NCBI GenBank assembly: GCA_003332265.1
Contig: QPGA01000014.1
Span: forward strand, 2,094-65,400
Direction: 5' to 3'
Length of the DNA stretch: 63,307 nucleotides
From: Candidatus Accumulibacter meliphilus
GTDB lineage: Bacteria > Pseudomonadota > Gammaproteobacteria > Burkholderiales > Rhodocyclaceae
In this document: piece by piece, positions 43,273-63,307 of the stretch
How positions within the stretch are numbered: the stretch's first letter is position 1
Layout: each line of letters begins with the position of its first letter
Notes under the pieces: generated by a model
Seen by the model: the letters and a program-made list of their open reading frames with translations, nothing else
Database searches by the model: none
Told to the model about the DNA's origin: nothing
Program-made: the position numbers and the translations under genes

Positions 43273-43574
43273 CAGAAGCCCCCTCCATCGACGAAGTTAA
43301 TCTCCTGCCCCGGCTGCAGGCACACGTAGGCTTTCTTCCAACTCTTCCGCCGACCCATCGCGCGACCAAACTTCTTCTGCTTGCCCTTGACGATGGCGAT
43401 CTGAACCGACTTCACCGAAACCTTGAACAGCAACTCGACAGCCCCCTTGACTTCAGGCTTGGTCGCATCCGGCACCACGCGAAAAATCACCTGCTCGTGC
43501 TTGTCGGCGATAAAAGTCGCCTTCTCGGAGATCTGTGGGGCGAGCAGTACTTGCATCAGGCGTTCTGGATTCAT
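43272..43574 (-). CDS. rplW: 50S ribosomal protein L23
   Basis: Exit-tunnel protein that docks trigger factor and SRP, 100 residues. It has [54 protein letters not shown], with the Glu (SEKAT) used in chaperone docking, and [19 protein letters not shown]. It overlaps rplD by 4 nt. Confidence 0.98.
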
Positions 43575-44191
43575 CCCAGGATCTCCTCAAACTTGGCCAA
43601 CGCACCCCGGGTGATCAACACCTTCGGGAACCGGACCAGCGACACGGGATCGGCCTGCTGAACTTCCACAACCAACACATTGGGAAGGTTGCGCGAAGCG
43701 AGAAACACGTTCTCGCCAAGCTCTTCAGTGATCACCAGTACGGACTCATAGCCCAAACCCTTGATCTTCGCCGCAAATAATTTTGTCTTCGGGGCCTCGA
43801 TCGAAAACTCATCGACCACTGCCAGACGATCTTCACGGACCAGCTGGGAAAGAATGGCCGCCATACCGGCGCGATACATCTTGCGGTTCAGCTTGTGGCT
43901 GAAGTTTTCGTCCGGCGTACTTGGAAAGACCCGACCACCGCCACGCCAGATTGGCGACGACGACATGCCCGCACGAGCCCGACCCGTGCCTTTCTGACGC
44001 CAAGGCTTTTTGGTCGAGTGACGGACGTCAGCGCGATCTTTTTGAGCGCGATTGCCGCTGCGGGCGTTGGCCTGATAGGCAACCAGGACTTGATGCACCA
44101 GAGCTTCGCTATATTCGCGACCGAAAAGAACATCAGAAGCCTGCAGGCGACTCGCCTCCTGGCCCTGCTCGTTAATAAGCTTGAGTTCCAT
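43571..44191 (-). CDS. rplD: 50S ribosomal protein L4
   Basis: Large-subunit protein of 206 residues with a tunnel loop ([30 protein letters not shown]). In E. coli, L4 also represses the S10 operon by attenuation and translation control. It follows rplC with no gap. A possible attenuator-like leader exists in front of rplC, which makes autogenous control by L4 worth testing. Confidence 0.98.
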
Positions 44192-44836
44192 TTATGCCCC
44201 CGCCTTGACTGCAGGACGCACGACCACGTCCGACCCCTTGGAGCCGGGAACCGCACCCTTGAGCAGCAGCAACTGCCGCTCGACGTCGACGCGAATGACT
44301 TCGAGATTTTGCTGAGTACGCTTGGCAGCGCCCAACTGGCCAGCCATTTTCTTGCCCGGAAAAACACGCCCCGGATCCTGCGCCATACCCGTCGAGCCCA
44401 GCGCCTTATGCGACACGGAGTTGCCGTGCGTAGCGTTCTGAGACGAGAAGTGATGCCGCTTGATCGCACCGGAGAAGCCCTTGCCGATCGTCCGGCCGGT
44501 GACATCAACCTTCTGGCCGACTGCAAAAATGGTGATGCTGACCTGGTCGCCAGCTTTCAGCTCAGCGAGCTCCTCGGCAGAAACAGGAAACTCTTTCAAT
44601 ACGTGACCTGCTTCGACGCCAGCCTTGGCCAGATGCCCGGCCAGCGGCTTGCTTACGCGCGACGGACGCCGCTTGCCAAAAGCCAACTGCACGACGGAGT
44701 AGCCGTCGTTTTGCTGCGTCTTGATCTGAGCGACGCGATTGTTCGACACATCGAGCACGGTTACCGGGATGCTTGCGCCAGCCTCGGTAAAAATGCGCGT
44801 CATGCCGACCTTGCGTCCAACAAGGCCTAGACTCAT
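44192..44836 (-). CDS. rplC: 50S ribosomal protein L3
   Basis: Early assembly protein of 214 residues reaching the peptidyl transferase centre. [46 protein letters not shown] and [50 protein letters not shown] (with the methylated Gln region) are diagnostic. Unlike in E. coli, 113 bp separate it from rpsJ and contain a promoter and hairpin. Confidence 0.98.
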
Positions 44837-44928: not shown

Positions 44929-44958
44929 ATTATAGCCGTAAGGCGATCGTTACTGCAA
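44929..44958 (-). promoter_or_regulatory. Candidate promoter between rpsJ and rplC
   Basis: Minus-strand TTGCAG (44953-44958, inside the last rpsJ codons), 18-bp spacer, perfect TATAAT (44929-44934). It would produce a leader of roughly 85 nt for rplC. Confidence 0.6.
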
Positions 44959-45261
44959 CTTAATTTCGACGTCGACACCAGCCGGCAGATCAAGCTTCAT
45001 CAGCGCATCGACGGTCTTGTCGGTCGGATCGATGATGTCCATCAGTCGCAGGTGGGTACGCATCTCGAACTGATCGCGCGAAGTCTTGTCGACGTGCGGC
45101 GAGCGAAGAAGGTCAAAACGCTGGATGCGCGTTGGCAGGGGAACCGGACCACGGACAACAGCGCCGGTACGCTTGGCGGTTTCGACGATTTCCTGGGCGG
45201 ACTGATCGATCAAGCGGTAGTCGAAGGCTTTCAGACGAATCCGAATTTTTTGGCTTTGCAT
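44950..45261 (-). CDS. rpsJ: 30S ribosomal protein S10 (NusE)
   Basis: Small-subunit protein of 103 residues, also NusE in antitermination. ATG 45261 ([19 protein letters not shown]) is the family start; four more codons are open upstream. [39 protein letters not shown] is conserved. It follows tuf by 59 bp. Confidence 0.98.
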
Positions 45262-45320
45262 GTCATATTCCAAAGAGCGATGGGCGGCCCAGCTGGCACC
45301 GCCCGAAGTTTTTTTTCAAA

Positions 45321-46511
45321 CTACTCGATGATTTTTGCAACCACACCGGCGCCTACGGTACGGCCACCTTCGCGAATAGCAAAACGGAGACCTTCTTCCA
45401 TGGCGATCGGCGCAATCAGCTTGACCGTCATCTGGATGTTGTCACCAGGCATCACCATTTCAACGCCTTCAGGCATCGAGATGGCACCGGTCACATCCGT
45501 CGTGCGGAAGTAGAACTGTGGGCGATAGTTATTGAAGAACGGCGTGTGACGACCGCCCTCTTCTTTCGACAAGACATACACCTCACCCGAGAAGTGGGTG
45601 TGCGGCTTGATCGAACCGGGCTTGGCCAGCACCTGACCGCGCTCGACATCTTCACGCTTGACACCGCGCAGCAGAACACCGACGTTGTCGCCCGCCCGAC
45701 CTTCGTCGAGCAGCTTGCGGAACATCTCGACGCCGGTGCAGATGGTCTTCACCGTCGGCCTGATACCAACAATCTCGACTTCTTCACCCACCTTGACGAT
45801 GCCGCGCTCGACACGACCGGTAACCACGGTACCGCGACCGGAGATCGAGAAAACGTCCTCGATCGGCAACAGGAAAGGCTTGTCGATGGCGCGCTCGGGG
45901 GTCGGAATGTAGCTATCCAGCGCATCCGCCAGGGCCAGCACCGACAGCTCACCGAGCTCGCCCAGGTCACCCTCGAGGGCCTTCAGCGCAGAACCCTGGA
46001 TGATCGGCACGTCGTCGCCGGGGAAATCGTATTTGGAAAGCAGCTCGCGCACTTCCATATCCACCAGCTCGAGCAGCTCGGCATCATCAACCATGTCGCA
46101 CTTGTTCAGATAGACAATGATGTACGGTACACCCACCTGGCGGGCCAACAGAATGTGCTCGCGCGTCTGCGGCATCGGACCATCAGCGGCAGAGCACACC
46201 AGAATCGCGCCATCCATCTGCGCGGCACCGGTAATCATGTTCTTCACATAGTCAGCGTGACCCGGGCAATCGACGTGCGCGTAGTGGCGCTTTGCCGTCT
46301 CGTACTCGACGTGCGCAGTATTGATCGTGATCCCGCGCGCCTTTTCTTCCGGCGCCGCGTCGATCTGGTCGTAGGCTTTGGCGGTACCGCCATACTTCTT
46401 CGACAGAATGGTCGTGATCGCCGCCGTCAGCGTTGTCTTGCCGTGGTCAACGTGCCCAATCGTACCCACGTTGACGTGTGGCTTCGTACGTTCAAATTTT
46501 CCCTTGGCCAT
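45321..46511 (-). CDS. tuf: Elongation factor Tu
   Basis: GTPase of 396 residues delivering aminoacyl-tRNA to the ribosome. It has GHVDHGKTT (G1), the switch-I region with [14 protein letters not shown] (G3 with the catalytic His) and NKCDMV (G4). Domains 2 and 3 are complete. Upstream are tRNA-Thr, tRNA-Gly and tRNA-Tyr, the context usual for tufB; downstream is rpsJ, the context usual for tufA. The secE-nusG-rplKAJL-rpoBC-rpsLG-fusA block normally found between the two copies in betaproteobacteria is absent here. Confidence 0.98.
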
Positions 46512-46561
46512 TACCGGTACCTCAAGACGTTAAAAATTAGTGAATCTACGGCACCCAACAG

Positions 46562-46636
<75 letters not shown>

Positions 46637-46684
46637 GGCGTGCGCGATGCCTGATGCTGTTCTGCGGCCATAACGTGGACCGCG

Positions 46685-46758
46685 TGGAGCGGGTGAAGGG
46701 AATCGAACCCTCGTCATAAGCTTGGAAGGCTTCAGCTCTACCATTGAGCTACACCCGC
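46685..46758 (-). tRNA. tRNA-Gly (TCC)
   Basis: A 74-nt cloverleaf on the minus strand with encoded CCA. The acceptor GCGGGTG pairs with CACCCGC. The anticodon loop CTTCCAA gives TCC. The T arm is GAGGGTTCGATTCCCTT. It is followed 48 bp later by tRNA-Thr. Confidence 0.95.
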
Positions 46759-46809
46759 AAAACCATTACCCGAAGCACGCTAAAACAAGGCCACCAACAG
46801 CGGCATTTT

Positions 46810-46894
46810 TGGTGGAGGGAGAAGGATTCGAACCTTCGAAGGCAGAGCCGTCAGATTTACAGTCTGATCCCGTTGGCCACTTGGGTATCCCTCC
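46810..46894 (-). tRNA. tRNA-Tyr (GTA)
   Basis: An 85-nt class II tRNA with a long variable arm and encoded CCA. The acceptor GGAGGGA pairs with TCCCTCC and the anticodon loop CTGTAAA gives GTA. It is first in the tyr-gly-thr-tuf transcript. Confidence 0.95.
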
Positions 46895-46909
46895 AGCTCA
46901 GAACCCAGG

Positions 46910-46938
46910 ATTCTGGCACCTGGGAAAATAACTGTCAA
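46910..46938 (-). promoter_or_regulatory. Promoter of the tRNA-Tyr/Gly/Thr-tuf transcript
   Basis: Minus-strand consensus TTGACA (46933-46938), 17-bp spacer, CAGAAT (46910-46915), 16 bp upstream of the tRNA-Tyr 5' end. An A/T-rich stretch upstream (AAAAACAATT) could act as an UP element. Confidence 0.65.
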
Positions 46939-47075
46939 ATTGTTTTTCGAGCAGCGCAAGATTATAGACGAGAAGCGAAGCCCGCGTACAGCTCTTTTGA
47001 CACTTTCGCGTACGCAAGGGCGTAAAATCGCCTGCGTCCCTATCCGTAGCACGAAAAAAGGATCCTCCTGGCGCG

Positions 47076-47530
47076 ATGAGCCCCTCACTGAACAGTCCTT
47101 TGCCCAAGCACCCGCCTCTCCCTGAGCATCTCGTGGCGACCCTGAAAGACCGCTTTGCCTCGCGTTTCTCGCAGGGCGAGTCGATTCGCATACCCATCGT
47201 CCCCTATGGCGTCGGTAGTTCGGTCGAAGTCGGGGTCACGCGCCTGCAGCTGAACGCAGCCCTGAAGAGCAGCGGGCTATTCGTTCCGATTGACCCGGGC
47301 GACAATGTGCCGGGCATGACGGTGATCCTGGCCGACGGGCAAATCATCAAGGCCAGCGGCGGTCAGCGAACAAGCGCAGATCGTGCTGGGGATTGCCGGC
47401 AGTTTCGGCGGCCAGGAGTTCGCCTGGGCGACGCACAACGAGGACCGTTCGCGCCTGTGGCAGGCTGAGCGAGCAGGCCAGCAACCCGGCCTGGCAGGGC
47501 CCCGGCGCGGGCCATGCGCTCATGTAGCCC
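47076..47530 (+). pseudogene. Multiply deleted FAD-linked oxidase (GlcD/D-lactate dehydrogenase family) remnant
   Basis: Pieces of one family appear in the right order but with large parts missing. LPEHLVATLKDRFASRFSQGE is the N-terminus, PIVPYGVGSS the FAD-binding motif, VGVTRLQLNAALKSSGLFVPIDPG the next block and MTVILADGQIIKASGG a later one. Then, in another frame, comes AVSEQAQIVLGIAGSFGGQEFAWATHNEDRSRLWQAE from the C-terminal half. About 450 nt remain of an expected 1.4 kb. The GlyGly and lid segments between blocks are gone, so it cannot be functional. Family assignment is from remembered GlcD sequence order. Confidence 0.7.
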
Positions 47531-47574
47531 CTGCCGACATTCCAACGCAGCGCCCAATCCTCCGGAGCAAGACC

Positions 47575-48366
47575 TTGTCTTCACCCGCACCCGAATCCAC
47601 TGACGCCGGGCTGCCCGTCTTTGCCTCGCAACTTCGTCAACTGGCCCTGCAACTCGCCGCGACACTCGCCGTGCTGTCGCTGGCCTGGCCATATTACGGA
47701 CTGCGCAACGAGCCGCTGCCGTGGCCACAAACCGCTCTGGCCATTGGCGCCACCGCCCTGCTCTTCGCCAGTCTCACGCGTCAGGCCTGGTGGTGGCGGC
47801 TGATCCACGCGCTCTTCGTACCGCTGGCGTGGTCGGCTTCGATGATCGGCATTGACCCGGGCTGGTACCTGCTGCTGTTCTTCGTGCTGCTACTCGTCTA
47901 TCGCGGCGCACTAGGTGGCCAGATACCGCTCTTCCTGTCCAACGCAGCCACCGCGGCAGCCCTCGCCGCGTTGACCCGAGAGCTGCCCCAGATGCGCTTT
48001 CTCGACCTTGGCGCCGGTGTCGGCAGCGTGCTCGGTCCGCTCGCCCGGCAGCGGCCCGATGCGCACTTCACCGGCGTCGAGAATGCGCCAGCGGCCTGGG
48101 CCTGCGGACGCCTGCGCATGGCCGGGCTAGGCAACTGCGACTGGCGCTGGGGCGACCTCTGGCGCACCGAACTGTGCGCCTACGACGTCGTCTATGCCTT
48201 CCTCTCACCGGTCCCGATGGCCGCCCTCTGGGAAAAGGCGCAGCGGGAAATGCGCCCCGGCGCGCTGTTCATCAGTAACAGTTTCGCGGTGCCCGATGTC
48301 GCCGCCGAGCAGGTCATCGAAGTCGACGACGCGCGCCAGACGCGACTGTTCTGCTACCGCCTGTGA
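47575..48366 (+). CDS. Membrane-anchored class I SAM-dependent methyltransferase
   Basis: A 263-residue protein. Four hydrophobic segments fill residues about 14-120. They are followed by a methyltransferase domain with MRFLDLGAGVGSVLGPLARQRPDAHFTGVENAP (SAM motif I and acidic loop), WGDLWRTELCAYDVVYAFLSPVPM and ALFISNSFAVPD. TTG 47575 is chosen because CGGAG lies 9 nt upstream and upstream codons belong to the neighbouring pseudogene. The substrate is unknown. Confidence 0.75.
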   Translation: MSSPAPESTDAGLPVFASQLRQLALQLAATLAVLSLAWPYYGLRNEPLPWPQTALAIGATALLFASLTRQAWWWRLIHALFVPLAWSASMIGIDPGWYLLLFFVLLLVYRGALGGQIPLFLSNAATAAALAALTRELPQMRFLDLGAGVGSVLGPLARQRPDAHFTGVENAPAAWACGRLRMAGLGNCDWRWGDLWRTELCAYDVVYAFLSPVPMAALWEKAQREMRPGALFISNSFAVPDVAAEQVIEVDDARQTRLFCYRL

Positions 48367-48526
48367 GCGCGCCCCGGGACGACGCTTCATGCGCGCTTCA
48401 TGCGCACACCGAGGTCGGCCGCCACGGTTGCCAGCGAGCAGCGATTGCCAACAGTCGGCGCCCCACCCCGGAGACGGTGAAACTTTGCTAACATGACCGA
48501 TTCCATCACCACCGGAGCCGAAAAAA

Positions 48527-48976
48527 ATGTCCAGTAACGATTCTCTAACCGATCCGATGAGCTTCGCCAAAAAAATGTTTGGCAATATGGGCTTTTCCTT
48601 GCCGGGCATGGTCACCCCGACGCTGGACGTTGATGAAATCGAGAAGAAGGTCAAGGATCTCAAAGCCGTCGAGAGCTGGCTGAAAATGAATTTGTCGATG
48701 CTGCAGATGACCATCCAGGGCCTGGAAATGCAATGCGTGACGCTCAACGCTGTGCGCGCGATGAGCCAGATGGGCACCAGTCTCACAGCCGGTGCCACCG
48801 CCGGAAGCGACGACACGCAGACGACAGCGCTTGGCAGTCCAGAAGGCGCCGATGCGCTCAAACAGGCGGCAATGTGGCCCTGGACCATGATGCAGCAGAT
48901 GCAGGAACAGATGAAGCAGGCTGCGGCCGCCGCGCAACAGGCGGCTTCAGGCGACGACGCGCCGAAGAAGCCCTAA
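48527..48976 (+). CDS. phaM: PhaM-like polyhydroxyalkanoate granule regulatory protein
   Basis: A 149-residue protein. GMVTPTLDVDEIEKKVKDLKAVESWLKMNLSMLQMTIQGLEMQ (residues about 27-70) is the PhaM family core. PhaM binds PHA synthase and the nucleoid to set granule number and segregation in Ralstonia. The C-terminal Gln/Ala-rich helix ends in PKKP, shorter than the PAKKA-type DNA-binding tail of Ralstonia PhaM. CCGGAG precedes the ATG. It stands between the methyltransferase and the convergent CoA-transferase gene. Confidence 0.82.
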   Translation: MSSNDSLTDPMSFAKKMFGNMGFSLPGMVTPTLDVDEIEKKVKDLKAVESWLKMNLSMLQMTIQGLEMQCVTLNAVRAMSQMGTSLTAGATAGSDDTQTTALGSPEGADALKQAAMWPWTMMQQMQEQMKQAAAAAQQAASGDDAPKKP

Positions 48977-49006
48977 GCACACAGGGGCAAGCCGACGGCC
49001 GCGGCG

Positions 49007-50182
49007 TCAGATGATCGACGCCGCGCGCATGGCGATGATCTCGCTCGCCGCAAACCCTGCCTCGCGCAGGATCTCCTCGCCGTGCTCGCCAGCAGCGGGC
49101 GCAGCGCGCTCGACCGCAAAAACCCAGCCCGAGAGCTTCACCGGCGGCGCGTACTGAACAACCCCGTCAGCGTGCACCGCCATCTGACGCGCGACAAAAT
49201 GCGCATGTTCGAGAGCCTCCGCCACAGCGAGTACCGGCGTCACGCAGCAATCGATGTCGGCAAAGAAGTTGCTCCAGTCGGCCTGTGTGCGACTCGCAAA
49301 GAGGGTCTCTATTTCCGCGCGCAAGGCAAGCGCGGTCGCGCCGCGCACAGCGTGCAGGGGCTTCCAGTCAGGACGTTCCAGTGCCGCACAGAAGACGTCC
49401 CAGAACTTCTTCTCGAGCGGCGCGACAGCCATGTAGCGACTATCCGCTGTGGCGTACACCCCATAGCCAGGGTCAGCTCCGGTAAGCAGATCGCGCCCGC
49501 GCTCGGGCAGGCCGCCAGCACTCTGCATCGCGAACAGCGGAAAAAGGTTGTGTGCCAGAACCGCGTCGCTCATCGCCACGTCGACCAGGCGACCCTGGCC
49601 ACTGCGCTGAGCATCGAACAAGGCCGCGAGAATACCCATAACGGCGCTCATCGCGCCGCCCAACAAGTCGCCCATCTGCAGATTGGGGATCGCTGGCGGC
49701 CCCCCATCGACACCAATCTGATCGAGGACACCGGCCAGGCCAATGTAGTTGAGATCGTGCCCAGCGGCCATCGCCAGCGGTCCACTCTGGCCATAACCGG
49801 TGATCGCGCAATAGACCAGCTTGGGGTTGATCGAGCGCAGCGCCGGATAGCCGATGCCGAGCCGGTCGCTGACCCCGGGCCGGAAACTCTCGACCAGCAC
49901 GTCGGCAGTAGTCGCCAGACGCAGCAAGACTGCCTGCCCCTGTTCCTGTTTGAGGTCGAGGCATAGACCGCGCTTGTTGCGGTTGACGCTGCGATAGAAA
50001 GCACTGACCCCAGCCGGGCCCTCGCCGAGCAAGCGCGCGTAATCGCCAGCCCCATGATCTTCGATCTTGATCACATCGGCGCCCAGGTCGGCCAGATGCA
50101 AGCTCGCCACTGGGCCGGGAAGCAGACGGGTCAGATCAAGAACACGCACTCCGCGCAGGGGTGCGCCACTCATCGCACTCAT
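49007..50182 (-). CDS. CaiB/BaiF (type III) CoA transferase family protein
   Basis: Family III CoA transferase or racemase of 391 residues. GVRVLDLTRLLPGPVASLHLADLGADVIKIEDHGAGDYAR and FYRSVNRNKRGLCLDLKQEQG are N-terminal hallmarks, with a conserved Asp in NLQMGDLLGGAMSAVMGILAAL near residue 170. The start at 50182 overlaps the stop of the upstream gene (ATGA); the open frame upstream is out-of-frame coding for that gene. Alpha-methylacyl-CoA racemase is an alternative function within this family. It is last in the importer-ligase operon. Confidence 0.88.
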   Translation of the reverse strand: MSAMSGAPLRGVRVLDLTRLLPGPVASLHLADLGADVIKIEDHGAGDYARLLGEGPAGVSAFYRSVNRNKRGLCLDLKQEQGQAVLLRLATTADVLVESFRPGVSDRLGIGYPALRSINPKLVYCAITGYGQSGPLAMAAGHDLNYIGLAGVLDQIGVDGGPPAIPNLQMGDLLGGAMSAVMGILAALFDAQRSGQGRLVDVAMSDAVLAHNLFPLFAMQSAGGLPERGRDLLTGADPGYGVYATADSRYMAVAPLEKKFWDVFCAALERPDWKPLHAVRGATALALRAEIETLFASRTQADWSNFFADIDCCVTPVLAVAEALEHAHFVARQMAVHADGVVQYAPPVKLSGWVFAVERAAPAAGEHGEEILREAGFAASEIIAMRAASII

Positions 50183-50697
50183 CGCTCGTCCTCGCAGCGC
50201 TCGAGCCAGGCCGCATCCATGTCGATCAGCGCCCCCTTCTGCAGGGTCTGCTCCAGGAACTGACCGCGGAACAGCCATCCTGGCGTGCCGTGCTGATGCG
50301 ACCACGGCGTTTCCCATTCGGAGACCAGCACCTGCACGCGCGTCACCTCGACCTCCCGGGGCAGCGTATCCACAACGCTCACCGAAGCCGGCTCCACGCA
50401 AGGCATCGCGGCCGCCAGGCGCGCGTGGTCGGCTGCTGTATAGGCGGCAGCGGGTTTGCCGAGGTGTGGACAGCGATCAAGCTGCCGCCGCTGGCGGGAA
50501 AGCGCGGCGATCGAACCTTTCAGCCAATAGGTCGGCGCCTTCAGCAGCCGGCCGGCGCCGCCTTCACTAAAGATCACGCAGTCACCGAGCTGCGGCGCGG
50601 ACGCAGCAGAGGAAGCGCTTGCCGCCGGCGCAGCGTCGTCAGCGAGCAGCGCAGCAGCCAGCAATGAACCGGCAATGACGGCCAGTACGCGCCTCAT
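50179..50697 (-). CDS. Conserved-looking exported protein of unknown function
   Basis: A 172-residue protein with an N-terminal signal peptide (MRRVLAVIAGSLLAAALLADDA). The mature part has C40, C76, C100 and C168, so disulfides are possible. It includes the aromatic stretch SEWETPWSHQHGTPGWLFRGQFL. I do not recognise the family. It overlaps the PaaK-like gene upstream and the CaiB gene downstream by 4 nt each, which ties it firmly to this operon, so a role in periplasmic handling of the same substrate is possible. Confidence 0.7.
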   Translation of the reverse strand: MRRVLAVIAGSLLAAALLADDAAPAASASSAASAPQLGDCVIFSEGGAGRLLKAPTYWLKGSIAALSRQRRQLDRCPHLGKPAAAYTAADHARLAAAMPCVEPASVSVVDTLPREVEVTRVQVLVSEWETPWSHQHGTPGWLFRGQFLEQTLQKGALIDMDAAWLERCEDER

Positions 50698-51926
50698 TCG
50701 TAGCTGCGCAGGTCTTCGATCACCTTGCCGTCGTTGGCCAGGGCTCCCGCAGCCCGGAAAGCCACCTCGGCACGCAGCTTGGTGAGCTCGCGAATGCTGG
50801 CCACCAGCGCCGCCTGCAGTGCGTCCGAGGGCTGCGCGACCTCGCAGTACAGGGTCATTCGATCCCGACCGCCGGCATTGTCGACCACCAGCCGCGCGCG
50901 GCCAATTTCGCCGTGCCGCGCGACAAGCGCCGCGACCTGCGAAGGGTGTACGAACATCCCCTTGACCTTGGTCGTCTGATCCGCGCGCCCCAGCCAGCCC
51001 CTGATGCGCACATTGGTCCTGCCGCAGGGGCTGATCCCCGGCAGAAAGGCCGAAAGATCGCCGGTAGCAAAGCGAATCAGCGGGTAATCCGGATTGAAAC
51101 TGGTCACCACCACTTCGCCGACCTCCCCTTCGGCCACCGGATCGCCGGTACCGGGACGAACGATTTCGAGCAGCACCTCTTCCTCGACGACCAGCCCCTC
51201 CTCACTCGGCGTCTCATAGGCAATCAGGCCGAGATCGGCAGACGCATAGGCCTGGCGAACAAGCACGCCACGCTCATTGAGCAGCTTGCGCAGCGTCGGC
51301 GGCAAAGCTTCGCCCGAGACGACCGCCTTGCGCAATGAGCTGACATCGGCACCTACTTCGTCGGCTTTGTCGAGAATGATGCGCAGAAACGAAGGCGTGC
51401 CGACATAGGCCACCGGCTTGAGGTCGGCAATCGCCTGCACCTGCATATCGGTCTGGCCGACGCCGGCTGGAAAAACCGGACAACCGAGCTTCTGCGCCGC
51501 GCCTTCGAGCATGAAGCCGGCCGGTGTGAAATGGTAGGAAAAAGTGTTGTGCACCAGATCGCCGGCCCGGAACCCGGTGGCAAAGAGGACGCGCGCGAAA
51601 CGCCACCAGTCCTGGCCACGGCCCTCGGGATCATAGATCGGACCCGGCGAAGCAAAAACCCGGGACAAGCCGGTCATTGGCGTCGCCGTCAGGCCACCGA
51701 AAGGCAGTGCCGCGCGTTGCAGTTGGCCGAGCTCGCTCTTGCGCGTCACCGGCAGTGTTGCCAGTGCAGCGCGCGAATCGATGGTGTCGGCGGCAAGGCC
51801 AGCAAACAGCTGGCGCCAGTACGCTGAATTCCTCTTGGCATGCTCAAGCTGCTGCGACAGGCGTCCCATCAGCCAGGCTTCGCGCTCGGCCGGCGAACGC
51901 GTTTCCAGAGAATCGTAGTAATCCAT
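50694..51926 (-). CDS. Phenylacetate-CoA ligase-like AMP-forming enzyme
   Basis: Adenylate-forming acyl/aryl-CoA ligase of 410 residues, the length of PaaK. Features are DYYDSLETRSPAEREAWLMGRL at the start, HNTFSYHFTPAGFMLEGAAQKLGCPVFPAGVGQTDMQV, GTPSFLRIILDKA, YASADLGLIAYE, LIRFATGDLS and a C-terminal RIRGWLGRADQTTKVKGMFVHPSQV carrying the lid motif. The usual P-loop TSGTTG is replaced by VFASPGP, as in some PaaK relatives. It follows livF by about 100 bp in the same operon. Confidence 0.86.
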   Translation of the reverse strand: MDYYDSLETRSPAEREAWLMGRLSQQLEHAKRNSAYWRQLFAGLAADTIDSRAALATLPVTRKSELGQLQRAALPFGGLTATPMTGLSRVFASPGPIYDPEGRGQDWWRFARVLFATGFRAGDLVHNTFSYHFTPAGFMLEGAAQKLGCPVFPAGVGQTDMQVQAIADLKPVAYVGTPSFLRIILDKADEVGADVSSLRKAVVSGEALPPTLRKLLNERGVLVRQAYASADLGLIAYETPSEEGLVVEEEVLLEIVRPGTGDPVAEGEVGEVVVTSFNPDYPLIRFATGDLSAFLPGISPCGRTNVRIRGWLGRADQTTKVKGMFVHPSQVAALVARHGEIGRARLVVDNAGGRDRMTLYCEVAQPSDALQAALVASIRELTKLRAEVAFRAAGALANDGKVIEDLRSYE

Positions 51927-52028
51927 GGCTTGTCACTCACACGATAAGAAAGTTCGCGCCAAACAGTGAAGACAGCCCGCCATGCCGCCACCAAAGCAGA
52001 CAGCGCGACGCGGCAGCCCACGGGCGGT

Positions 52029-52841
52029 TCAGGAAAGCCAGCGCTTGCGACGACGATAGTGCTTGACGTCTTTGAAGCTCTTGCGCCCGGCCGACGACAG
52101 GCCGAGGTAGAACTCCTTGACGTCTTCGTTGGCAGCGAGTTCCTTGGCGGCACCCTCCATGACCACGCGGCCGTTTTCGAGAATGTAGCCAAAGTCTGCG
52201 TAACGCAGCGCCATGTTGGTGTTCTGTTCCGCGAGGAGGAAGGTCACGCCTTCCTTCTGATTCAGATCCTTGACGATGCCGAACACCTCATCGACGATTT
52301 GCGGCGCCAGACCCATCGACGGCTCGTCGAGCAGCACCATGCTTGGCTTGGCCATCAGCGCCCGGCCGACGGCGCACATCTGTTGCTCGCCACCCGAGGT
52401 GTAGGCCGCCTGGCTGCTGCGGCGCGTCTTCAGGCGTGGAAAATACGAGTAGACTTTTTCCAGAGTCTCGTTGATGGCCGCTTTGCCATCACGGCGCGTG
52501 TAGGCACCAGTGAGCAGGTTTTCCTCGATGCTCAGGTGGCCAAAGCAGTGCCGCCCCTCCATCACCTGAATGACGCCGCGTTTAACGAGGTCGGCCGGCG
52601 TCAGCGCCTCGATGCGCTCGTCGCGCAACTCAATGCTTCCTTTGGTGACTTCGCCGCGCTCGCCGTGCAACAGATTGCTGACCGCGCGCAGGGTCGTCGT
52701 CTTGCCGGCACCGTTGCCGCCAAGCAGCGCCACGACACCGCCTTCGGGAACGCTGAAGGAAACGCCCTTGAGAACCAGGATCACGTGGTTGTAGATGACC
52801 TCGATGCTATTGACTCGGAGAAGGATGTTGGCAGTGCTCAT
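52029..52841 (-). CDS. livF: HAAT-family ABC transporter ATP-binding protein (LivF type)
   Basis: ATPase of 270 residues for hydrophobic amino acid or aromatic/organic acid uptake. It has GGNGAGKTTT (Walker A), YTSGGEQQMCAVGRALM (signature), MVLLDEPSMGLAP (Walker B) and LLAEQNTNMAL. ATG 52841 (MSTANILLRVNSIEVIYNHV) is the family start; upstream codons fall in the hairpin element. The C-terminus has an additional basic tail (KSFKDVKHYRRRKRW). Confidence 0.9.
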   Translation of the reverse strand: MSTANILLRVNSIEVIYNHVILVLKGVSFSVPEGGVVALLGGNGAGKTTTLRAVSNLLHGERGEVTKGSIELRDERIEALTPADLVKRGVIQVMEGRHCFGHLSIEENLLTGAYTRRDGKAAINETLEKVYSYFPRLKTRRSSQAAYTSGGEQQMCAVGRALMAKPSMVLLDEPSMGLAPQIVDEVFGIVKDLNQKEGVTFLLAEQNTNMALRYADFGYILENGRVVMEGAAKELAANEDVKEFYLGLSSAGRKSFKDVKHYRRRKRWLS

Positions 52842-52864
52842 GGCGTCTCTTCGCTCAGCGGGCC

Positions 52865-52917
52865 GCCCTCCCGCAAGCGGGAGGGCTGACAAAGGACTCG
52901 CGGTGACGAGTCCACGG
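52865..52917 (+). repeat. Dispersed two-hairpin element, copy C (diverged)
   Basis: Perfect GCCCTCCCGC-AA-GCGGGAGGGC (52865-52886) and GGACTCG...CGAGTCC (52894-52913) in the livJ-livF spacer. The architecture, and CCGTGGAC on the opposite strand, link it to copy D. The element ends at the stop codon of the binding-protein gene. It could reduce readthrough or protect the upstream mRNA. Confidence 0.6.
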
Positions 52918-52920
52918 CAC

Positions 52921-54261
52921 TTACTTGTTGCACTCCTCGGGCGTGCGCGGCGTCAGGTTCTTCTCTTCCGCGTACTTGCCGGAGGCGAGCATGACCATCG
53001 GGCGCAAAGTCGTGTCGTCGGCCTGATACCAGTCGGGGGAAACAAACTCCCACTTCTTGCCGTTCCAGGTCTGAATGCGTACCCACGACGATCCCATGTG
53101 GTCCAGGCAGGAAGTCTTCACCGGACGCATCACGCCAGCGAAGCCCATTGCATCGAGCGTTTTCTGGTCGAGATCGAGATGCTCGAGACCCCAACGCACC
53201 TGCTCGCCGGTCATCACCTTGCCCTTGCCGTAGCGCTCCTGGGCCTTGCGAACCCCTTCGACGGCGAGCATCGCCGAAATCAGGCCACGCATGTAGAGCA
53301 CGTCGCCGACCTCCTCTTTTGGTCCGGTCCCCTCACCCTTGGCGTGCAAGGCAGCAAGAACGTCCTTGGCGATCCTGGAATTGTGCTCGGCACCATGCTG
53401 CAAAGTCAGCGCGCTATAGCCTTTAGCCCCCTCACCAACGTCTTTGACATCGGGTTCGGCGCCCGCCCACCAGATGCCCAGCATCTTGTTGCGCGGATAA
53501 CCGGTCGCCTGCGCCTCACGTAGAGCGGTCGAATTCATCACCCCCCAGCCCCAGAGCAGAACGTAGTCGGGCTTGCTCTGCCGGATCTGCAGCCAGGTTG
53601 CTTTCTGCTCGACGCCGGGGTGCGCCACGGGCAGCAGTTGCACCTGGAAACCATGCTTCTTGCCCAATTCCTCGAGGACCGGAATCGGTTCCTTGCCGTA
53701 CGGACTGTCGTGATACACCAGAGCGATTTTCTTGCCTTTCAGCTTGTCGGCGCCGCCTTCCTGCTTGGCGATGTACTGAATCGCAACGTCAGCGCCAACC
53801 CAGTAGGTACCAAGCAAGGGGAAGTTCCAGGGAAAGACCGCGCCGTTTGTCGATTCGCTACGGCCGTAACCGGCGGTGATCAACGGAATCTTGTCTTTCG
53901 GTGCCTTTTCGGTCAGCGCAAAGGTAACGCCGGTCGACAGGGGCTGGAAGTTCGTCGCACCGCCGTGCTTGCCTTTCAGACGCTCGTAGCACTCGACACC
54001 GCGGTCGGTGGCGTAACCCGTCTCACACTCCTCGAAAATGAGCTTGACGCCGTTGATACCGCCCTGCGCGTTGACCAGCTTCAGGTAATCAACATAACCA
54101 TTGGCCCAGGGAGCGCCGTTTGGAGCGTAGGCGCCGGTGCGGTACACCAGGACCGGAAAGTACTGTTCCTTGGCCTGCTGCGCCGCCGCCGGCGCGGTCG
54201 CCAGCGACGACAGAGCGATGGCGCCCAGTGAAGCAGTAAGTACGAGCTTGCTTAAGTTCAT
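52921..54261 (-). CDS. HAAT-family ABC transporter substrate-binding protein
   Basis: Periplasmic receptor of 446 residues with a Sec signal peptide (MNLSKLVLTASLGAIALSSLATAPAAAQQ). The mature protein matches the LivJ/AmiC-like type I fold: FPVLVYRTGAYAPNGAPWANGYVDYLKLVNAQGGINGVKLIFEECETGYATDRGVECYERL. It is longer than LivJ (about 370), like receptors for aromatic or other organic acids. The genes for ligases at both ends of the operon suggest a carboxylic acid rather than leucine as substrate; that is inference. Confidence 0.88.
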   Translation of the reverse strand: MNLSKLVLTASLGAIALSSLATAPAAAQQAKEQYFPVLVYRTGAYAPNGAPWANGYVDYLKLVNAQGGINGVKLIFEECETGYATDRGVECYERLKGKHGGATNFQPLSTGVTFALTEKAPKDKIPLITAGYGRSESTNGAVFPWNFPLLGTYWVGADVAIQYIAKQEGGADKLKGKKIALVYHDSPYGKEPIPVLEELGKKHGFQVQLLPVAHPGVEQKATWLQIRQSKPDYVLLWGWGVMNSTALREAQATGYPRNKMLGIWWAGAEPDVKDVGEGAKGYSALTLQHGAEHNSRIAKDVLAALHAKGEGTGPKEEVGDVLYMRGLISAMLAVEGVRKAQERYGKGKVMTGEQVRWGLEHLDLDQKTLDAMGFAGVMRPVKTSCLDHMGSSWVRIQTWNGKKWEFVSPDWYQADDTTLRPMVMLASGKYAEEKNLTPRTPEECNK

Positions 54262-54358
54262 TCGTGTCTCCTCTTATTGAAATGGCGATACCACTGCAAC
54301 AACACCTACGACTGCGACAAACTCCATTACAAATGTGAAGCGGCCCGCTCCCCGCGCA

Positions 54359-55435
54359 TCAGTGCGGGAATGGCCAGAGCCGCAGCTTTTCCTTGCCGGT
54401 CGACCACAGGCGCGCTATGCCGTGCGGCTCCTTGATCAGGAAGAAGACGATCAGGCCGCCGAAGATGATCAACTCGGCGTGCGAGATGCCCGCGGTCGAT
54501 ATTTCGACGCCGACCAGGTCACCGATCGCCGGCAGCAGTTGATTGAGGGCGATCGGAAGAACGACGATGAAGGCCGCGCCGAAGAAACTGCCCATGATCG
54601 AACCGAGACCACCAATAATGACCATGAACAGCAACTGGAACGAACGATCGACCGAGAAGGCGGCCGGCTCCCACGAGGCGAGGTGTACGAAGCCCCACAG
54701 CGCGCCGGCCGTGCCGACGAAGAAGGAACTGACGGCAAATGCCGAGAGCTTGGCAAACAGCGGCCGAATTCCGATCACTTCGGCAGCCACATCCATGTCA
54801 CGGATCGCCATCCACTGCCGGCCGATGGCGCTACGCGTCATGTTCTTTGCCATCAGTGCGAAGACGGTCAGGATCGCCAGGCAAAACAGATATTTGTTGA
54901 GCGGGTTGTTGATCTGCCAGCCCATCACCTGCAGGTTGGAAACCGAAACCGAGCCCGACGAGGCGTTGTCCGTAAACCAGGGAACGCGTAGAAAAACCCA
55001 GTCGGTGAAAAACTGCGCCGCCAGGGTGGCGACCGCCAGGTAAAGACCGCGCACACGCAAACTCGGGATCCCGAAGACGATGCCCACGGCGGCGGCAGTC
55101 AGGCCGCCAAGCAGCAGTGACACGAGCAAGGGCATGCCTTCGACACGAATGTGGAAGTTGTACGCCGCGTACGCCCCGACGGCCATGAAGGCGCCGGCAC
55201 CGAGCGTGATCTGCCCGCAGAAGCCGACCAGGATATTGACCCCGAGAGCGGCCAGCGACAGGATTACAAAGGGAATCAGGATGGCACGGAACATGTACTC
55301 GTCGACCAGCAGCGGGACGGCGACGAAGGCGAACACCAGGATGCCGATGATCGCCCAGCGGTCCTGGGTGATCGGAAAAATTTGCTGGTCGGCGGCGTAA
55401 GAAGTCTTGAACTGACCGTTTTCTCTATATAGCAC
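54359..55435 (-). CDS. livM: HAAT-family ABC transporter permease (LivM type)
   Basis: Membrane permease of 358 residues with eight to ten helices. LGVNILVGFCGQITLGAGAFMAVGAYAAYNF and TRSAIGRQWMAIRDMDVAAEVIGIRPLFAKLSAFAVSSFFVGTAGALWG (the EAA-like coupling region) are diagnostic. Between livH (15 bp upstream) and the binding-protein gene (97 bp downstream). An N-terminal extension of about 25 residues (LYRENGQFKTSYAADQQIFP) precedes the first helix. Confidence 0.91.
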   Translation of the reverse strand: MLYRENGQFKTSYAADQQIFPITQDRWAIIGILVFAFVAVPLLVDEYMFRAILIPFVILSLAALGVNILVGFCGQITLGAGAFMAVGAYAAYNFHIRVEGMPLLVSLLLGGLTAAAVGIVFGIPSLRVRGLYLAVATLAAQFFTDWVFLRVPWFTDNASSGSVSVSNLQVMGWQINNPLNKYLFCLAILTVFALMAKNMTRSAIGRQWMAIRDMDVAAEVIGIRPLFAKLSAFAVSSFFVGTAGALWGFVHLASWEPAAFSVDRSFQLLFMVIIGGLGSIMGSFFGAAFIVVLPIALNQLLPAIGDLVGVEISTAGISHAELIIFGGLIVFFLIKEPHGIARLWSTGKEKLRLWPFPH

Positions 55436-55450
55436 TTGCCTGCTCCCCGA

Positions 55451-56380
55451 TTAGACGCGGTCGATGATCTTTTCCCCGAACAGGCCTTGCGGCCTGAACA
55501 GAAGAAAGACCAGAGCCAGTACGTAGGCAAACCAGATCTCGATGCCGCCGCCCACCATCGGCCCGATGTAGACCTCGGAAAGTTTCTCGCCGACACCGAT
55601 GATCAAGCCGCCGATGATGGCGCCGGGAACCGAAGTCAGCCCGCCGAGAATGACCACCGGCAGCGCCCGCAGGGCCACCGTCGACAAGGAGAACTGGACC
55701 CCGAGTTTCGACCCCCAGATCACGCCGGCGACCAAGGCAACCAGGCCGGCGACGCACCAGACGATCACCCAGATGCGATTCAATGGAATGCCGATCGATT
55801 GCGCCGCCTGATGATCGTCGGCCACCGCCCGCAGGGCTCTCCCGGTGGTCGTCTTCTGGAAGAAAAGGGTTAGCAGGCCGACCAGGACGGCGGCGATCAA
55901 GGCGGCGATGAAATCCTCCTTGTTGATCAGCAAGCCGCCTGCGAAAGTCCCTTCGAAGAGAAACACCGGATCCTTGGGCATGCCGACGTCGATCGTATAG
56001 ATGCTGCTGCCGAAAAGGCTGCTGCCGACGCCTTCAAGAACATAGGCGATGCCTAGCGTAGCCATCAGCAGCGTCGCGCCCTCCTGATTGACCAGATGAC
56101 GCAGAACCAGGCGTTCGATCAACCAGGCGACCACGAACATCAAGGCCCCGGCGACGACGAAGGCTGCGGCGGTTCCCAGGTACGAACCCTCGAGGCCGAA
56201 CCAGCCCGGAATCCACTCCGCAAAACGGGCCATGGCCAGAGCGGCAAACAAGACCATCGCCCCCTGCGCGAAGTTGAACACGCCGGAGGCCTTGAAAATC
56301 AGCACGAAGCCGAGCGCCACCAGCGAATAGAGCATGCCGGCCATCAGGCCACCGATCAATGTTTCCAGGAAGAAACCCAT
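55451..56380 (-). CDS. livH: HAAT-family ABC transporter permease (LivH type)
   Basis: Membrane permease of 309 residues. The N-terminal GGLMAGMLYSLVALGFVLIFKASGVFNFAQGAMVLFAALAMA and TTTGRALRAVADDHQAAQSIGIPLNRIWVIVWCVAGLVALVAGVIWG (coupling helix) are typical. It follows the livG-type gene after a 134-bp spacer occupied by dispersed element copy D; the ribosome site AAGGAG overlaps the element edge. Confidence 0.92.
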   Translation of the reverse strand: MGFFLETLIGGLMAGMLYSLVALGFVLIFKASGVFNFAQGAMVLFAALAMARFAEWIPGWFGLEGSYLGTAAAFVVAGALMFVVAWLIERLVLRHLVNQEGATLLMATLGIAYVLEGVGSSLFGSSIYTIDVGMPKDPVFLFEGTFAGGLLINKEDFIAALIAAVLVGLLTLFFQKTTTGRALRAVADDHQAAQSIGIPLNRIWVIVWCVAGLVALVAGVIWGSKLGVQFSLSTVALRALPVVILGGLTSVPGAIIGGLIIGVGEKLSEVYIGPMVGGGIEIWFAYVLALVFLLFRPQGLFGEKIIDRV

Positions 56381-56390
56381 CGCATCACTC

Positions 56391-56490
56391 CTTACCGTGG
56401 ACGTCGCGTACGCGACTCACAAACCTCCCTTCTCCCCCTGTGGGAGAAGGGCTGGGGGAAGAGGGAGACGGTCATCCCTTTCATGATCTG
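56391..56490 (-). repeat. Dispersed two-hairpin element, copy D
   Basis: Aligns over about 100 nt with copy A in the opposite orientation. The hairpins are GTCGCG-TA-CGCGAC (56403-56416) and CCCTTCTCCC...GGGAGAAGGG (56427-56451), and the tail GGTCATCCCTTTCATGATC is shared. Stem changes relative to A are compensatory. It sits between livG and livH. Confidence 0.8.
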
Positions 56491-56514
56491 TGGTTTCTCG
56501 ACAGGTCAGGACCG

Positions 56515-57297
56515 TCAGTGGCTGGCGCCAAGATAGGCGCTGATGACGTCCGGATTGTTGCGGACCGCGTCCGGATCACCGTCACCGATCTTTTTGCCGT
56601 AGTCGAGAACGACGACCCGGTCGGAGATATCCATCACCACCGCCATGTCGTGCTCGATGAGCACGATGGTCGTCCCGAACTGGTCATTGACGTCGAGAAT
56701 GAAGCGGCACATGTCCTGCTTTTCTTCGACGTTCATGCCGGCCATTGGCTCGTCAAGCAGCAGGATGCTCGGCTCCATGGCCAGGGCGCGACCGAGGTCT
56801 ACGCGCTTTTGCAAACCGTAAGGCAGTCGTCCGACCGGCGTCTTGCGAATGTGCTGGATTTCGAGAAAGTCGATCACTTCCTCAACCTTGGCGCGATGCT
56901 CGAGTTCCTCGCGTCGTGCCGGTCCCCACCAGAAGGCCTGCTGAATCAGGTTGCTCCTGATTTTCAGGTTGCGCCCGGTCATCAGGTTGTCGATGACGTT
57001 CATTCCCTTGAACAGGGCAATGTTCTGGAAAGTCCGCGAGATACCGGCCTGGGCGGCTTTGTAGGGGTTCATTTTCGTGAACCGCTGACCGCGCAGGATG
57101 ATCTCGCCTTCCTGCGGCCGATAAACGCCGTTGATCACATTGAGCATCGAACTCTTGCCGGCACCGTTGGGGCCAATGATCGCCCGGATCTCGTGTTCGC
57201 GCACATCAAACGAGATGCCGGTCAGCGCCTTGACGCCGCCGAAGGACAGCGAAACCTGTTTCAGGTCGAGAACGACTTCGCCGATCTGCCGACTCAT
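56515..57297 (-). CDS. livG: HAAT-family ABC transporter ATP-binding protein (LivG type)
   Basis: ATPase of 260 residues with GPNGAGKSS (Walker A), the LivG-type insertion region GISRTFQNIALFKGMNVIDNLMTGRN, LPYGLQKRVDLGRAL in place of a strict LSGGQ signature, and ILLLDEPMAGMN (Walker B) with LIEHDMAVVMDIS. Its start overlaps the stop of the acyl-CoA synthetase gene by 4 nt. It pairs with LivF in the importer. Confidence 0.92.
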   Translation of the reverse strand: MSRQIGEVVLDLKQVSLSFGGVKALTGISFDVREHEIRAIIGPNGAGKSSMLNVINGVYRPQEGEIILRGQRFTKMNPYKAAQAGISRTFQNIALFKGMNVIDNLMTGRNLKIRSNLIQQAFWWGPARREELEHRAKVEEVIDFLEIQHIRKTPVGRLPYGLQKRVDLGRALAMEPSILLLDEPMAGMNVEEKQDMCRFILDVNDQFGTTIVLIEHDMAVVMDISDRVVVLDYGKKIGDGDPDAVRNNPDVISAYLGASH

Positions 57298-59255
57298 GAC
57301 GCGGCCCTCCCGGCAATAGCAAAGGTTTTCAGATCCCGGATGACCAGATCGGCGGCGACCTTGCCTTGCCGCCCGTCCTCGAATTTCACCGCCGTTTCGA
57401 TGAACTGGCTGTCCTTGCCAGCGTACAGCGCGTCGATCAAGACCCCGTACTTCTCGGCGACGAAACCGCGGCGTACCTTGCGTGTGCGCGTCAACTCGTC
57501 ATCATCGGGATCGAGCTCCTTGTGCAGGATCAGGAAACGATGAATCTGCGAATCGGCCAGCGGGCCTTCGCCAAGCAGTTCGGAATTCACCTGTTCGATC
57601 GACTCCTGGATCAGCCCATAGACCTCCACCTTGGCGGCCAGATCGGTATACCCCGAATACGCGATGCCGCGCCGCTCGGCCCAGTTACCAACCGCGCCGA
57701 TGTCGATGTTGATGAACGCACAGACCATCTCGCGGCGATCGCCGAAGACCACCGCCTCCTTGACGAAGGGGAAGAACTTGAGCTTGTTCTCAATGAAGTT
57801 GGGTGCAAACATGGCGCCGTTGGCCAGTTTGCCGACATCCTTGGCGCGATCGATGATCTTGAGATGCCCCTCGTCGTCGAACATGCCGGCGTCACCGGTC
57901 ATGAAATAGCCGTCGGCATTGATCGCTTCGGCGGTCGCGTCCGGCCGCTTGTAGTACTCTTTGAGCAGCATCGGACCCTTGACCAGGATTTCGCCGTTGT
58001 CGGCAATCTTCACCTCGACCCCGGGTGCCGGCTTGCCGACGCTGTCGAACTTGATCTCGCCGTCGGGTTGCAGACAGACGTAGGCACAGGTTTCGGTCTG
58101 ACCGTAGAGCTGCTTGAGGTTGATGCCGATCGAGCGGTAGAAACGGAAAAGGTCGGGGCCGATCGCCGCGCCGGCGGTATAGGCGACGCGCACGCGACTC
58201 AGTCCGAGGACGTTCTTCAGCGGCCCGAAAACAAAAAAGTTGCCCAGTCCATAGAGCACGCGATCGGCGAAGGACACCGCTTTGCCATCGAGAATCTCGG
58301 CACCGCTGCGCCGCGCCACGGCCATGAAATAGTGGAACATCTTCTGCTTGATGGCGCTGGCGTCTTCCATGCGGATCATCACCTGCGTCAACAGGTTCTC
58401 AAAAACGCGCGGCGGTGCGAAGTAGTAGGTCGGGCCGATTTCCCGCAGATCGTTCATTACCGTCTCGGCCGACTCCGGGCAGTTGATGGTGAAACCGGTG
58501 ATCATCGCCTGCGCAAACGAAAACAGATGGTCGCCCACCCAGGCCATCGGCAGGTAGGAGAGGATGTCTTCGTCTGCCGTCAGATGATCGAAATCGGCGC
58601 CACCGCGGGCGGCGCTGATGAAGGCGTGATGCGTCAGGCACACGCCTTTTGGCCTACCCGTCGTCCCCGAGGTATACAGCATGACGCTGACGTCGTCCGG
58701 GCTGCCGGCCGCGACCTCGCTGGTCAGCAGAGCAGGATGGTTGCGGTTGTGTATCCGCCCCATCTCCATCAGCTCGCGCACGTCGTGGATGAAGGGCTGC
58801 GTGTAGTGGCGCATGCCGTGCGGATCGTCGTAGAAGACGTGGCGCAGTTGCGGCAACTGCTCCTGCAGCTCAAGGACCTTGTCGACCTGCTCCTGATCTT
58901 CGACGAACAGGAAGCGGACCTCGGCGTCGACCAGAACGAAAAGCATCTCGTTGGCCACTGCATCCTGGTAGAGCGGCAAGGGCACCCCGCCAAGACACTG
59001 TACGGCGCTCATCATCATGTACATGCGCGGCCGATTGTCGCCGACAATGGCCACGTTCTCGCCACGCTTGAAGCCCATTTCGACAAGACCGCAGGCCAGC
59101 GCGCGCACCTCGTCGGCAACCTTCTGCCAGGTCCAGCACTGCCAAATCCCCAGGTCCTTCTCGCGCATGGCCACCTTGCCGCCGCGCACCTGGGCATGCT
59201 CCAACAGCAAGCGCGGAAAAGTATCCAGCGCTTGCGACGACGCAGTTTCCGGCAT
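57294..59255 (-). CDS. Long-chain acyl-CoA synthetase-like AMP-forming ligase
   Basis: Adenylate-forming ligase of 653 residues. The P-loop is VMLYTSGTTGRPKGVCLTHHA (near residue 195), the adenine-binding segment LKQLYGQTETCAYVCLQ, and GYFMTGDAGMFDDEGHLKIIDRAKDVGKLANG the hinge and lid region. The length and the C-terminal DELTRTRKVRRGFVAEKYG fit the eukaryote-like FACS group. It opens the importer operon, so it probably activates the imported acid. GGAGGAG precedes the ATG. A -10-like TATAAG lies about 50 nt upstream. Confidence 0.9.
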   Translation of the reverse strand: MPETASSQALDTFPRLLLEHAQVRGGKVAMREKDLGIWQCWTWQKVADEVRALACGLVEMGFKRGENVAIVGDNRPRMYMMMSAVQCLGGVPLPLYQDAVANEMLFVLVDAEVRFLFVEDQEQVDKVLELQEQLPQLRHVFYDDPHGMRHYTQPFIHDVRELMEMGRIHNRNHPALLTSEVAAGSPDDVSVMLYTSGTTGRPKGVCLTHHAFISAARGGADFDHLTADEDILSYLPMAWVGDHLFSFAQAMITGFTINCPESAETVMNDLREIGPTYYFAPPRVFENLLTQVMIRMEDASAIKQKMFHYFMAVARRSGAEILDGKAVSFADRVLYGLGNFFVFGPLKNVLGLSRVRVAYTAGAAIGPDLFRFYRSIGINLKQLYGQTETCAYVCLQPDGEIKFDSVGKPAPGVEVKIADNGEILVKGPMLLKEYYKRPDATAEAINADGYFMTGDAGMFDDEGHLKIIDRAKDVGKLANGAMFAPNFIENKLKFFPFVKEAVVFGDRREMVCAFINIDIGAVGNWAERRGIAYSGYTDLAAKVEVYGLIQESIEQVNSELLGEGPLADSQIHRFLILHKELDPDDDELTRTRKVRRGFVAEKYGVLIDALYAGKDSQFIETAVKFEDGRQGKVAADLVIRDLKTFAIAGRAAS

Positions 59256-59708
59256 CTTGTCTCCTCCGGTGCATTCACGGCCGTTATCGTGACGGCACGC
59301 TTTTACTTATATTGTTCTGCGCGATTCTAGTCTTTTTTTTTCGCTAGTCATTGTGCAATGCAGTATCACCATCAGCCACTGGCGTACCGGCAAGGCCGCC
59401 AGCTGCGTGGGCCTGTCGGATGGCAGCTGCTTCGGGGAAGCTTTGCTGCTCGAGGCCGAAGCACGCCGCAACAGCCCCTCCTCGACCCCGACGGGCAGCG
59501 CAACTTCGGTGCCTGGGGCAAGGCAGCGCCAGCAAGCCCCCTTCATCGGCAGAGCCGCTGCGCGGGAAAAAACACTCGGCAGAGCAGTGGATTGAACCAT
59601 GTAGGGATCTGGGTTAGTATTCGACGCCCCGAGGGGAGTGGTCTTGTCAACATCTGGAAAATTGGTTTCACAATCATTTCGCAAGACAAACAAGGAGGAT
59701 AAGTACAA
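59256..59708. other. 453-bp divergent intergenic region
   Basis: Lies between the acyl-CoA synthetase gene and the acetate permease operon. Short open frames occur on both strands, but none resembles a known family or has a convincing ribosome site. A T8 tract (59333-59341) and a GC-rich middle are present. The right part holds the candidate promoter of the permease operon and a strong AAGGAGG ribosome site at 59692. Confidence 0.5.
59592..59620 (+). promoter_or_regulatory. Candidate promoter of the DUF485-actP operon
   Basis: TTGAAC (59592-59597), 17-bp spacer, TAGTAT (59615-59620). Each hexamer matches 4 of 6 consensus bases. It would give a leader of about 80 nt. Confidence 0.4.
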
Positions 59709-60029
59709 ATGAGTAGCGTTATATACGATCGAATTCGGCGCAATCCGAAGTTCGACCAGCTGGTTCAGAAGCGAGGGAGCTTCGCCTGGACCTTGTCAGC
59801 CATCGTGCTGGTTATTTTCTACGGCTTCTTCTTGCTGGTTGCCTTCAATCCCAAGATGCTCGGGCAACCGATCGCCGAGGGATCGATGTGGGCCATCGGC
59901 TACACTGCCGAAATGGTGATGTTCATCTTTTTCTGGCTTCTGACCTTCCTTTACGTCCGCCGCGCCAATGGCGAGTTTGACGACCTGACGGCCGAAATCA
60001 TCAAAGAAGCGCAGAAGGAGACGAAATGA
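59709..60029 (+). CDS. DUF485 family inner membrane protein (YjcH-like)
   Basis: A 106-residue protein with two transmembrane helices ([20 protein letters not shown] and [18 protein letters not shown]). [22 protein letters not shown] at the N-terminus is the DUF485 hallmark. It is almost always encoded directly before an acetate-type symporter. Its stop overlaps the actP start by 4 nt. It is thought to be a partner subunit; the exact role is not established. Confidence 0.93.
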
Positions 60030-61690: not shown

Positions 61691-61720
61691 GTAGTCGATC
61701 ACCAGCCACACGCAAGCAAA

Positions 61721-61755
61721 CCCTGGCGGCGCCAAACGGCCCGCCAGGGTTTTTT
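61721..61755 (+). terminator. Intrinsic terminator of actP
   Basis: CCCTGGCGG (61721-61729) and CCGCCAGGG (61741-61749) form a perfect 9-bp stem with an 11-nt loop, followed by six T, 30 bp after the actP stop. Confidence 0.9.
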
Positions 61756-61844
61756 CTTGCCTGCCAGCTCGCCCGATCGCCTAAAGTTAAATGGGTATAG
61801 TCCGTTAACAGAGTGATGCATAGCGCGAATTGAGGGAGTTCCCC

Positions 61845-63275: not shown

Positions 63276-63307
63276 GCGCCACGATCGTTGCCGACTACCG
63301 GCTCCGA
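63276..63307. other. Window edge
   Basis: The last 32 bases after the carbonic anhydrase stop contain no recognisable feature. Confidence 0.5.

Follow-up and report, generated by a model that had tools for sequence, protein, structure and literature searches.

The question raised by a single tuf gene

Why does one tuf gene, encoding EF-Tu, stand directly between a transfer RNA (tRNA) cluster and rpsJ in the draft genome of Candidatus Accumulibacter meliphilus, at a place where two tuf genes (tufB and tufA) with a long block between them would be expected? The locus lies in a stretch of 63,307 nucleotides (the window), which corresponds to positions 2094-65400 of contig C26 in a draft of 4.70 Mb and 120 contigs that is 90.94% complete and 2.4% contaminated. 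From comparison of the contigs with each other and with relatives, we consider it almost certain that this junction is an assembly collapse, that is, an ordinary artefact and not a biological feature. Contig C82 of the same draft is the block expected between tufB and tufA, cut at both tuf genes.

As deposited, the window runs on the minus strand from tRNA-Tyr, tRNA-Gly and tRNA-Thr through a single intact tuf to rpsJ (Table 1). EF-Tu models score far above their cutoffs on the tuf product (TIGR00485: 768.5 bits, cutoff 522.4, residues 1-396). The rpsJ open reading frame spans 44950-45273, and the first Met of the S10 reading lies at 45261; the interval 45261-46562 thus gives the outer limits of the junction, set by the start of rpsJ and the near edge of tRNA-Thr, with the tuf gene proper at 45321-46511. 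No tRNA-Trp, or any fourth tRNA, was detected in the window by ARAGORN, and the window holds no N letters. An earlier note on this DNA had described a tRNA-Tyr/Gly/Thr-tuf-rpsJ junction; the ARAGORN tRNAs, the intact tuf and the rpsJ calls bear this out, and the block from trpT and secE to fusA is truly missing at the junction in the contig as deposited.

The missing block is found on another contig

C82 is 16,224 base pairs (bp) long. It opens with 218 bases of tuf, nucleotides (nt) 974-1191, and closes with another 146, nt 1-146; in an EF-Tu protein search the opening piece corresponded to codons 326-396 and the closing piece to codons 1-48, in agreement with the DNA search. The order between these two pieces is tuf 3' end, tRNA-Trp, secE, nusG, rplK, rplA, rplJ, rplL, rpoB, rpoC, rpsL, rpsG, fusA, tuf 5' end; the names rpoB and rpoC rest on position, long frames and similarity to the corresponding part of genus-mates, not on a family model. 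The earlier note had argued that the essential block must lie elsewhere and had proposed to search other contigs for a tuf beside fusA or beside tRNA-Trp and secE. That search was positive on both counts, at the two ends of one contig. The sequence absent from the junction is thus present elsewhere in the assembly and bounded on both sides by the repeat, as assembly collapse predicts.

Close tuf matches in the draft are confined to C26 (a single full copy, that of the window) and to both ends of C82, and the seven remaining EF-Tu protein matches are paralogues with 28-38% identity. rpoB has one match in the draft, on C82, and full-identity EF-G (fusA) occurs on C82 only, with a paralogue of 32% identity on C39. 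The draft contains two tuf 5' ends, one following the tRNAs on C26 and one following fusA on C82, as well as two tuf 3' ends, which precede rpsJ on C26 and tRNA-Trp on C82. Two entries and two exits allow only two pairings, provided that the draft misses no tuf-bearing contig: the canonical order, or a hybrid tuf plus a free circle of about 17 kilobases (kb).

Passing through C82, the two tuf starts would be 17,051 bp apart, or 16,862 bp once a single N and the repeated overlap of 188 bp within rpoC are subtracted; the corresponding spacing is 16,865 bp in the nearest relative, Candidatus Accumulibacter phosphatis SBR_S (G015), and 16,799-16,859 bp in seven contiguous genus-mates. The overlap is a peculiarity of C82 in its own right: at 9131-9507, inside rpoC, a direct overlap of 188 bp and 94% identity lies on either side of a single N (position 9319), and this lengthens the rpoC frame to 1466 codons. 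Apparently two contigs were scaffolded here without merging their overlap, and scaffolding errors of this kind are mentioned in PMC7111523.

Gene order in relatives

We compared 28 genomes that we infer to belong to Candidatus Accumulibacter, reading the match lists by eye. Three of them have merged junctions (the source included), nine have both loci on one contig, and in 16 the loci are not joined on one contig. All nine with both loci on one contig, including the single-contig genomes G010 and G016, are canonical, with the marker order tRNA-Tyr, tRNA-Gly, tRNA-Thr, tuf, tRNA-Trp, secE, nusG, rplA, rpoB, rpoC, rpsL, rpsG, fusA, tuf, rpsJ, and in all nine tufA and tufB are direct repeats; in one of the nine, G041, both tuf genes contain runs of N. 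In an alignment to G010, window 25932-46525 matched in five pieces through rpsJ to the second tuf, window 45325-46915 matched the first tuf and the tRNAs, and C82 filled the interval between the two tuf loci.

The merged junction recurs in 2 of the 27 other genus members, G015 and G020, each of which has another contig that starts inside tuf. The second contig of G015 carries the block from tuf to tuf; that of G020 starts in tuf and ends before fusA. The merged tuf of G020 (C63) is also frameshifted near codon 190, as a faulty merge could give; tufA and tufB of G011 differ most at codons 186-200.

A survey of the rplC region, in which the best 80 of 578 confirmed loci were sorted by script thresholds, gave 42 contigs that break inside tuf, 22 with fusA-tuf-rpsJ and two merged. 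The rest of these 80 comprised six without a tuf piece upstream of rpsJ (the contig starts 3-176 bases before rpsJ), six in which rpsJ was not found and two starting at the tuf start. The two merged loci among the best 80 were those of SBR_S and Thauera linaloolentis 47Lol. The T. linaloolentis draft has a 16,694-bp contig (its own C82) with the same block, bounded on one side by a full tuf and on the other by a tuf start of 24 codons; the two full tuf copies of this draft differ at three bases.

In an order-wide sample, 80 of 120 genomes passed E 1e-150 (the source included), and the assessment covered the 21 of the others that are single-contig. None of these 21 has a tuf match spanning tRNA to rpsJ, and each has two tuf matches. 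In 14 of them one match extends to the tRNAs and the second to rpsJ; in the other seven (G031, G060, G092, G097, G107, G145 and G148) one or both flanks lie outside the match. Relatives with contiguous sequence thus lack the junction (canonical in 9/9 of the genus, merged in 0/21 of the order), as would be expected if it arises in assembly.

Two tuf copies kept alike

Over the 1191 bases of the gene, tufA and tufB differ at 0, 2, 2, 2, 3, 10 and 23 positions in seven genus-mates. Such near-identity over 1191 bases makes a repeat that exceeds short reads, and repeats of this kind are what a collapse requires. Within the source genome the two copies can be compared over nt 1-146 and 974-1191, where C26 and C82 differ at nt 6, 18, 21, 24, 26, 27, 30, 33, 1101, 1137 and 1158. 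The remainder of their shared coverage, nt 34-146 and 974-1100, is identical. The middle of both copies would be identical as well, and the tuf of the window is probably a chimera of tufB and tufA.

The first 33 bases act as a 5' tag for each copy. The tufB and tufA types differ from each other at eight bases, and the tags of the source differ from those of G015 at one base (tufB) and none (tufA); this conservation in the nearest relative indicates that two genes exist. At window 46479-46511, paralogue-specific tags are thus kept in two Accumulibacter genomes, and the adjoining sequence is alike within genomes and unlike between them. The end of the 5' tag is, on this pattern, a sharp putative gene-conversion border, and the distribution of differences suggests concerted evolution of the two genes by gene conversion. 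Gene conversion is known for the duplicate tuf genes of Salmonella (Paulsson et al. 2017, PMC5485169). The Accumulibacter case can be likened to it, with the observed differences at the outer gene ends; the distinction is that conversion is read here from sequence patterns alone.

Assembly collapse and its alternatives

The following course of events would account for the contigs. The living chromosome most likely has the order tRNA-Tyr-Gly-Thr, tufB, tRNA-Trp, secE, nusG, rplKAJL, rpoBC, rpsLG, fusA, tufA, rpsJ, in which gene conversion would keep tufA and tufB nearly identical. An assembler unable to assign the ends to the copies may have walked the graph from the tufB side through the shared stretch to the tufA side, and would have left the 16-kb block between the copies as its own contig, C82. 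The earlier note had offered a merge of two tuf copies by the assembler as one of two explanations, and this one is strongly supported by C82, which is the absent block and has a piece of tuf on either side.

Four observations weigh against this account. The exact match between C82 and the window tuf is 113 bases long at the right end of C82 and 127 at the left, and no single k-mer length explains both. The nearest relative has the same junction, as a shared real rearrangement would also give. In G020 the second contig ends before fusA, so that only one of the two cut ends is seen. Finally, with the draft at 90.94% completeness, a further tuf-bearing contig could be missing.

One alternative is that recombination between the direct-repeat tuf genes looped the block out, so that the chromosome keeps a hybrid tuf and the block persists as a separate circle of about 17 kb that also carries one tuf. 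Besides the canonical order, this is the one way to join the four tuf ends of the draft, and the same contigs would result; the two arrangements would yield identical sequence graphs, so that the contigs alone cannot tell them apart. Such a circle, however, would have to carry rpoB and fusA, for which no second copy was found in the draft, and the C82 proteins that were inspected, a set that does not cover all small frames, did not include a replication gene. The ends of C82 show no exact overlap with each other, and every one of the nine genus-mates whose two loci share a contig has the block integrated. We regard the circle as extremely unlikely for these reasons. The broader version, in which a lineage comprising the source and G015 keeps rpoBC, rplKAJL, rpsLG and fusA on a tuf-excised 17-kb circle, perhaps balanced with the integrated form, would be just as hard to believe.

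A real transposition or inversion that moved the block elsewhere in the chromosome, the other explanation in the earlier note, has hardly any probability left. Rearrangements that separate the two loci do happen: in four single-contig order-mates (G039, G078, G137 and G148) the tufB and tufA loci are widely separated or lie on opposite strands. In G039, the separated case that was examined, each tuf nevertheless keeps its own canonical flanks (tRNAs-tuf-tRNA-Trp-secE and fusA-tuf-rpsJ). Had a tuf-bounded block moved to a new site, a further close tuf piece should mark it, but the draft has no third or fourth one beyond C26 and C82; both ends of C82 stop inside tuf and do not lead into a new stable context with flanks of its own. 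The standard order in the nine contiguous genus-mates, with tuf copies in direct orientation, argues against an inversion between them. The split in G039 falls between the rpoC start and rpsL, not in tuf.

That C82 comes from another organism binned together with this one, the source having a single tuf and its own block missing from the draft, is exceedingly improbable. The overlap of 94% identity around the N in rpoC is a sign of mixed strains, but the distance to G015 is much the same for C82 as for the window (96.2 and 95.4% versus 95.9 and 94.9%), so that C82 fits the same genome. rpoB occurs once in the draft, and next to the cuts the tuf sequences of the window and C82 are identical over 113 and 127 bases, stretches that each hold two differences between G015 and the window.

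Terminal overlaps of block contigs

A fixed k-mer overlap was considered as proof of the assembler's cut and did not hold. For ten block contigs, overlap was taken as the longest exact terminal match of at least 15 bases to the fetched partner pieces. The values (left/right) were mixed: 127/113 in the source draft (G000), 0/350 in G015, 338/0 in G020, 0/62 in G001, 141/126 in G002, 55/55 in G005, 0/55 in G014, 0/0 in G023, 0/20 in G043 and 201/0 in G007; values can drop through a mismatch near the contig end (G015, tuf nt 855), an unfetched partner or a fetched piece that stops 1-15 bases before the contig end.

Precedent and consequences

The phenomenon itself is already in print. Case two of Chen et al. 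2020 (PMC7111523) is a 15,678-bp betaproteobacterial piece with EF-Tu at both ends that carries rpS7, rpS12, rpL7/L12, rpL10, rpL1 and rpL11 and was missing from the metagenome bin concerned. C82 is like the piece described there in several ribosomal genes and in having EF-Tu at both ends. There, however, the piece lay outside its bin and its linkage was proposed through a relative and guanine-cytosine (GC) skew, whereas C82 is in the draft, with its flanks joined through one tuf. Operon order, tuf copy number and missing marker genes are accordingly unsafe to read from short-read drafts at tuf, and a merged tuf chimera can mislead tuf-based phylogeny and studies of gene conversion.

Features at the junction and beyond

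Table 1. Features at the tuf junction, in window positions.
Feature	Position	Strand	Remarks
tRNA-Tyr(GTA)	46810-46894	-	ARAGORN; left-hand, tufB-side context
tRNA-Gly(TCC)	46685-46758	-	ARAGORN; left-hand, tufB-side context
tRNA-Thr(GGT)	46562-46636	-	ARAGORN; left-hand, tufB-side context
merged tuf, EF-Tu, 396 codons	45321-46511	-	5' end putatively of the tufB side, 3' end of the tufA side; middle once in draft
tuf nt 1-33, tufB-type 5' tag	46479-46511	-	8/33 bases unlike the fusA-side piece of C82; 1/33 unlike the tRNA-side tuf of G015
tuf nt 34-146	46366-46478	-	113 bases identical to right end of C82
tuf nt 147-973	45539-46365	-	single occurrence in draft; presumed collapsed stretch
tuf nt 974-1100	45412-45538	-	127 bases identical to left end of C82
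rpsJ (S10)	44950-45261	-	right-hand, tufA-side context; NF001861 168.7 bits, cutoff 85
rplC	44192-44836		beyond rpsJ
rplD	43571-44191		beyond rplC

Farther out, no alignment of at least 150 bases was found between window 46916-63307 and the fetched stretch of G010, which we take as ordinary variation. Upstream of tRNA-Tyr, the window is collinear with G015 as far as this was fetched (to 53831), with a gap at 47192-47504.
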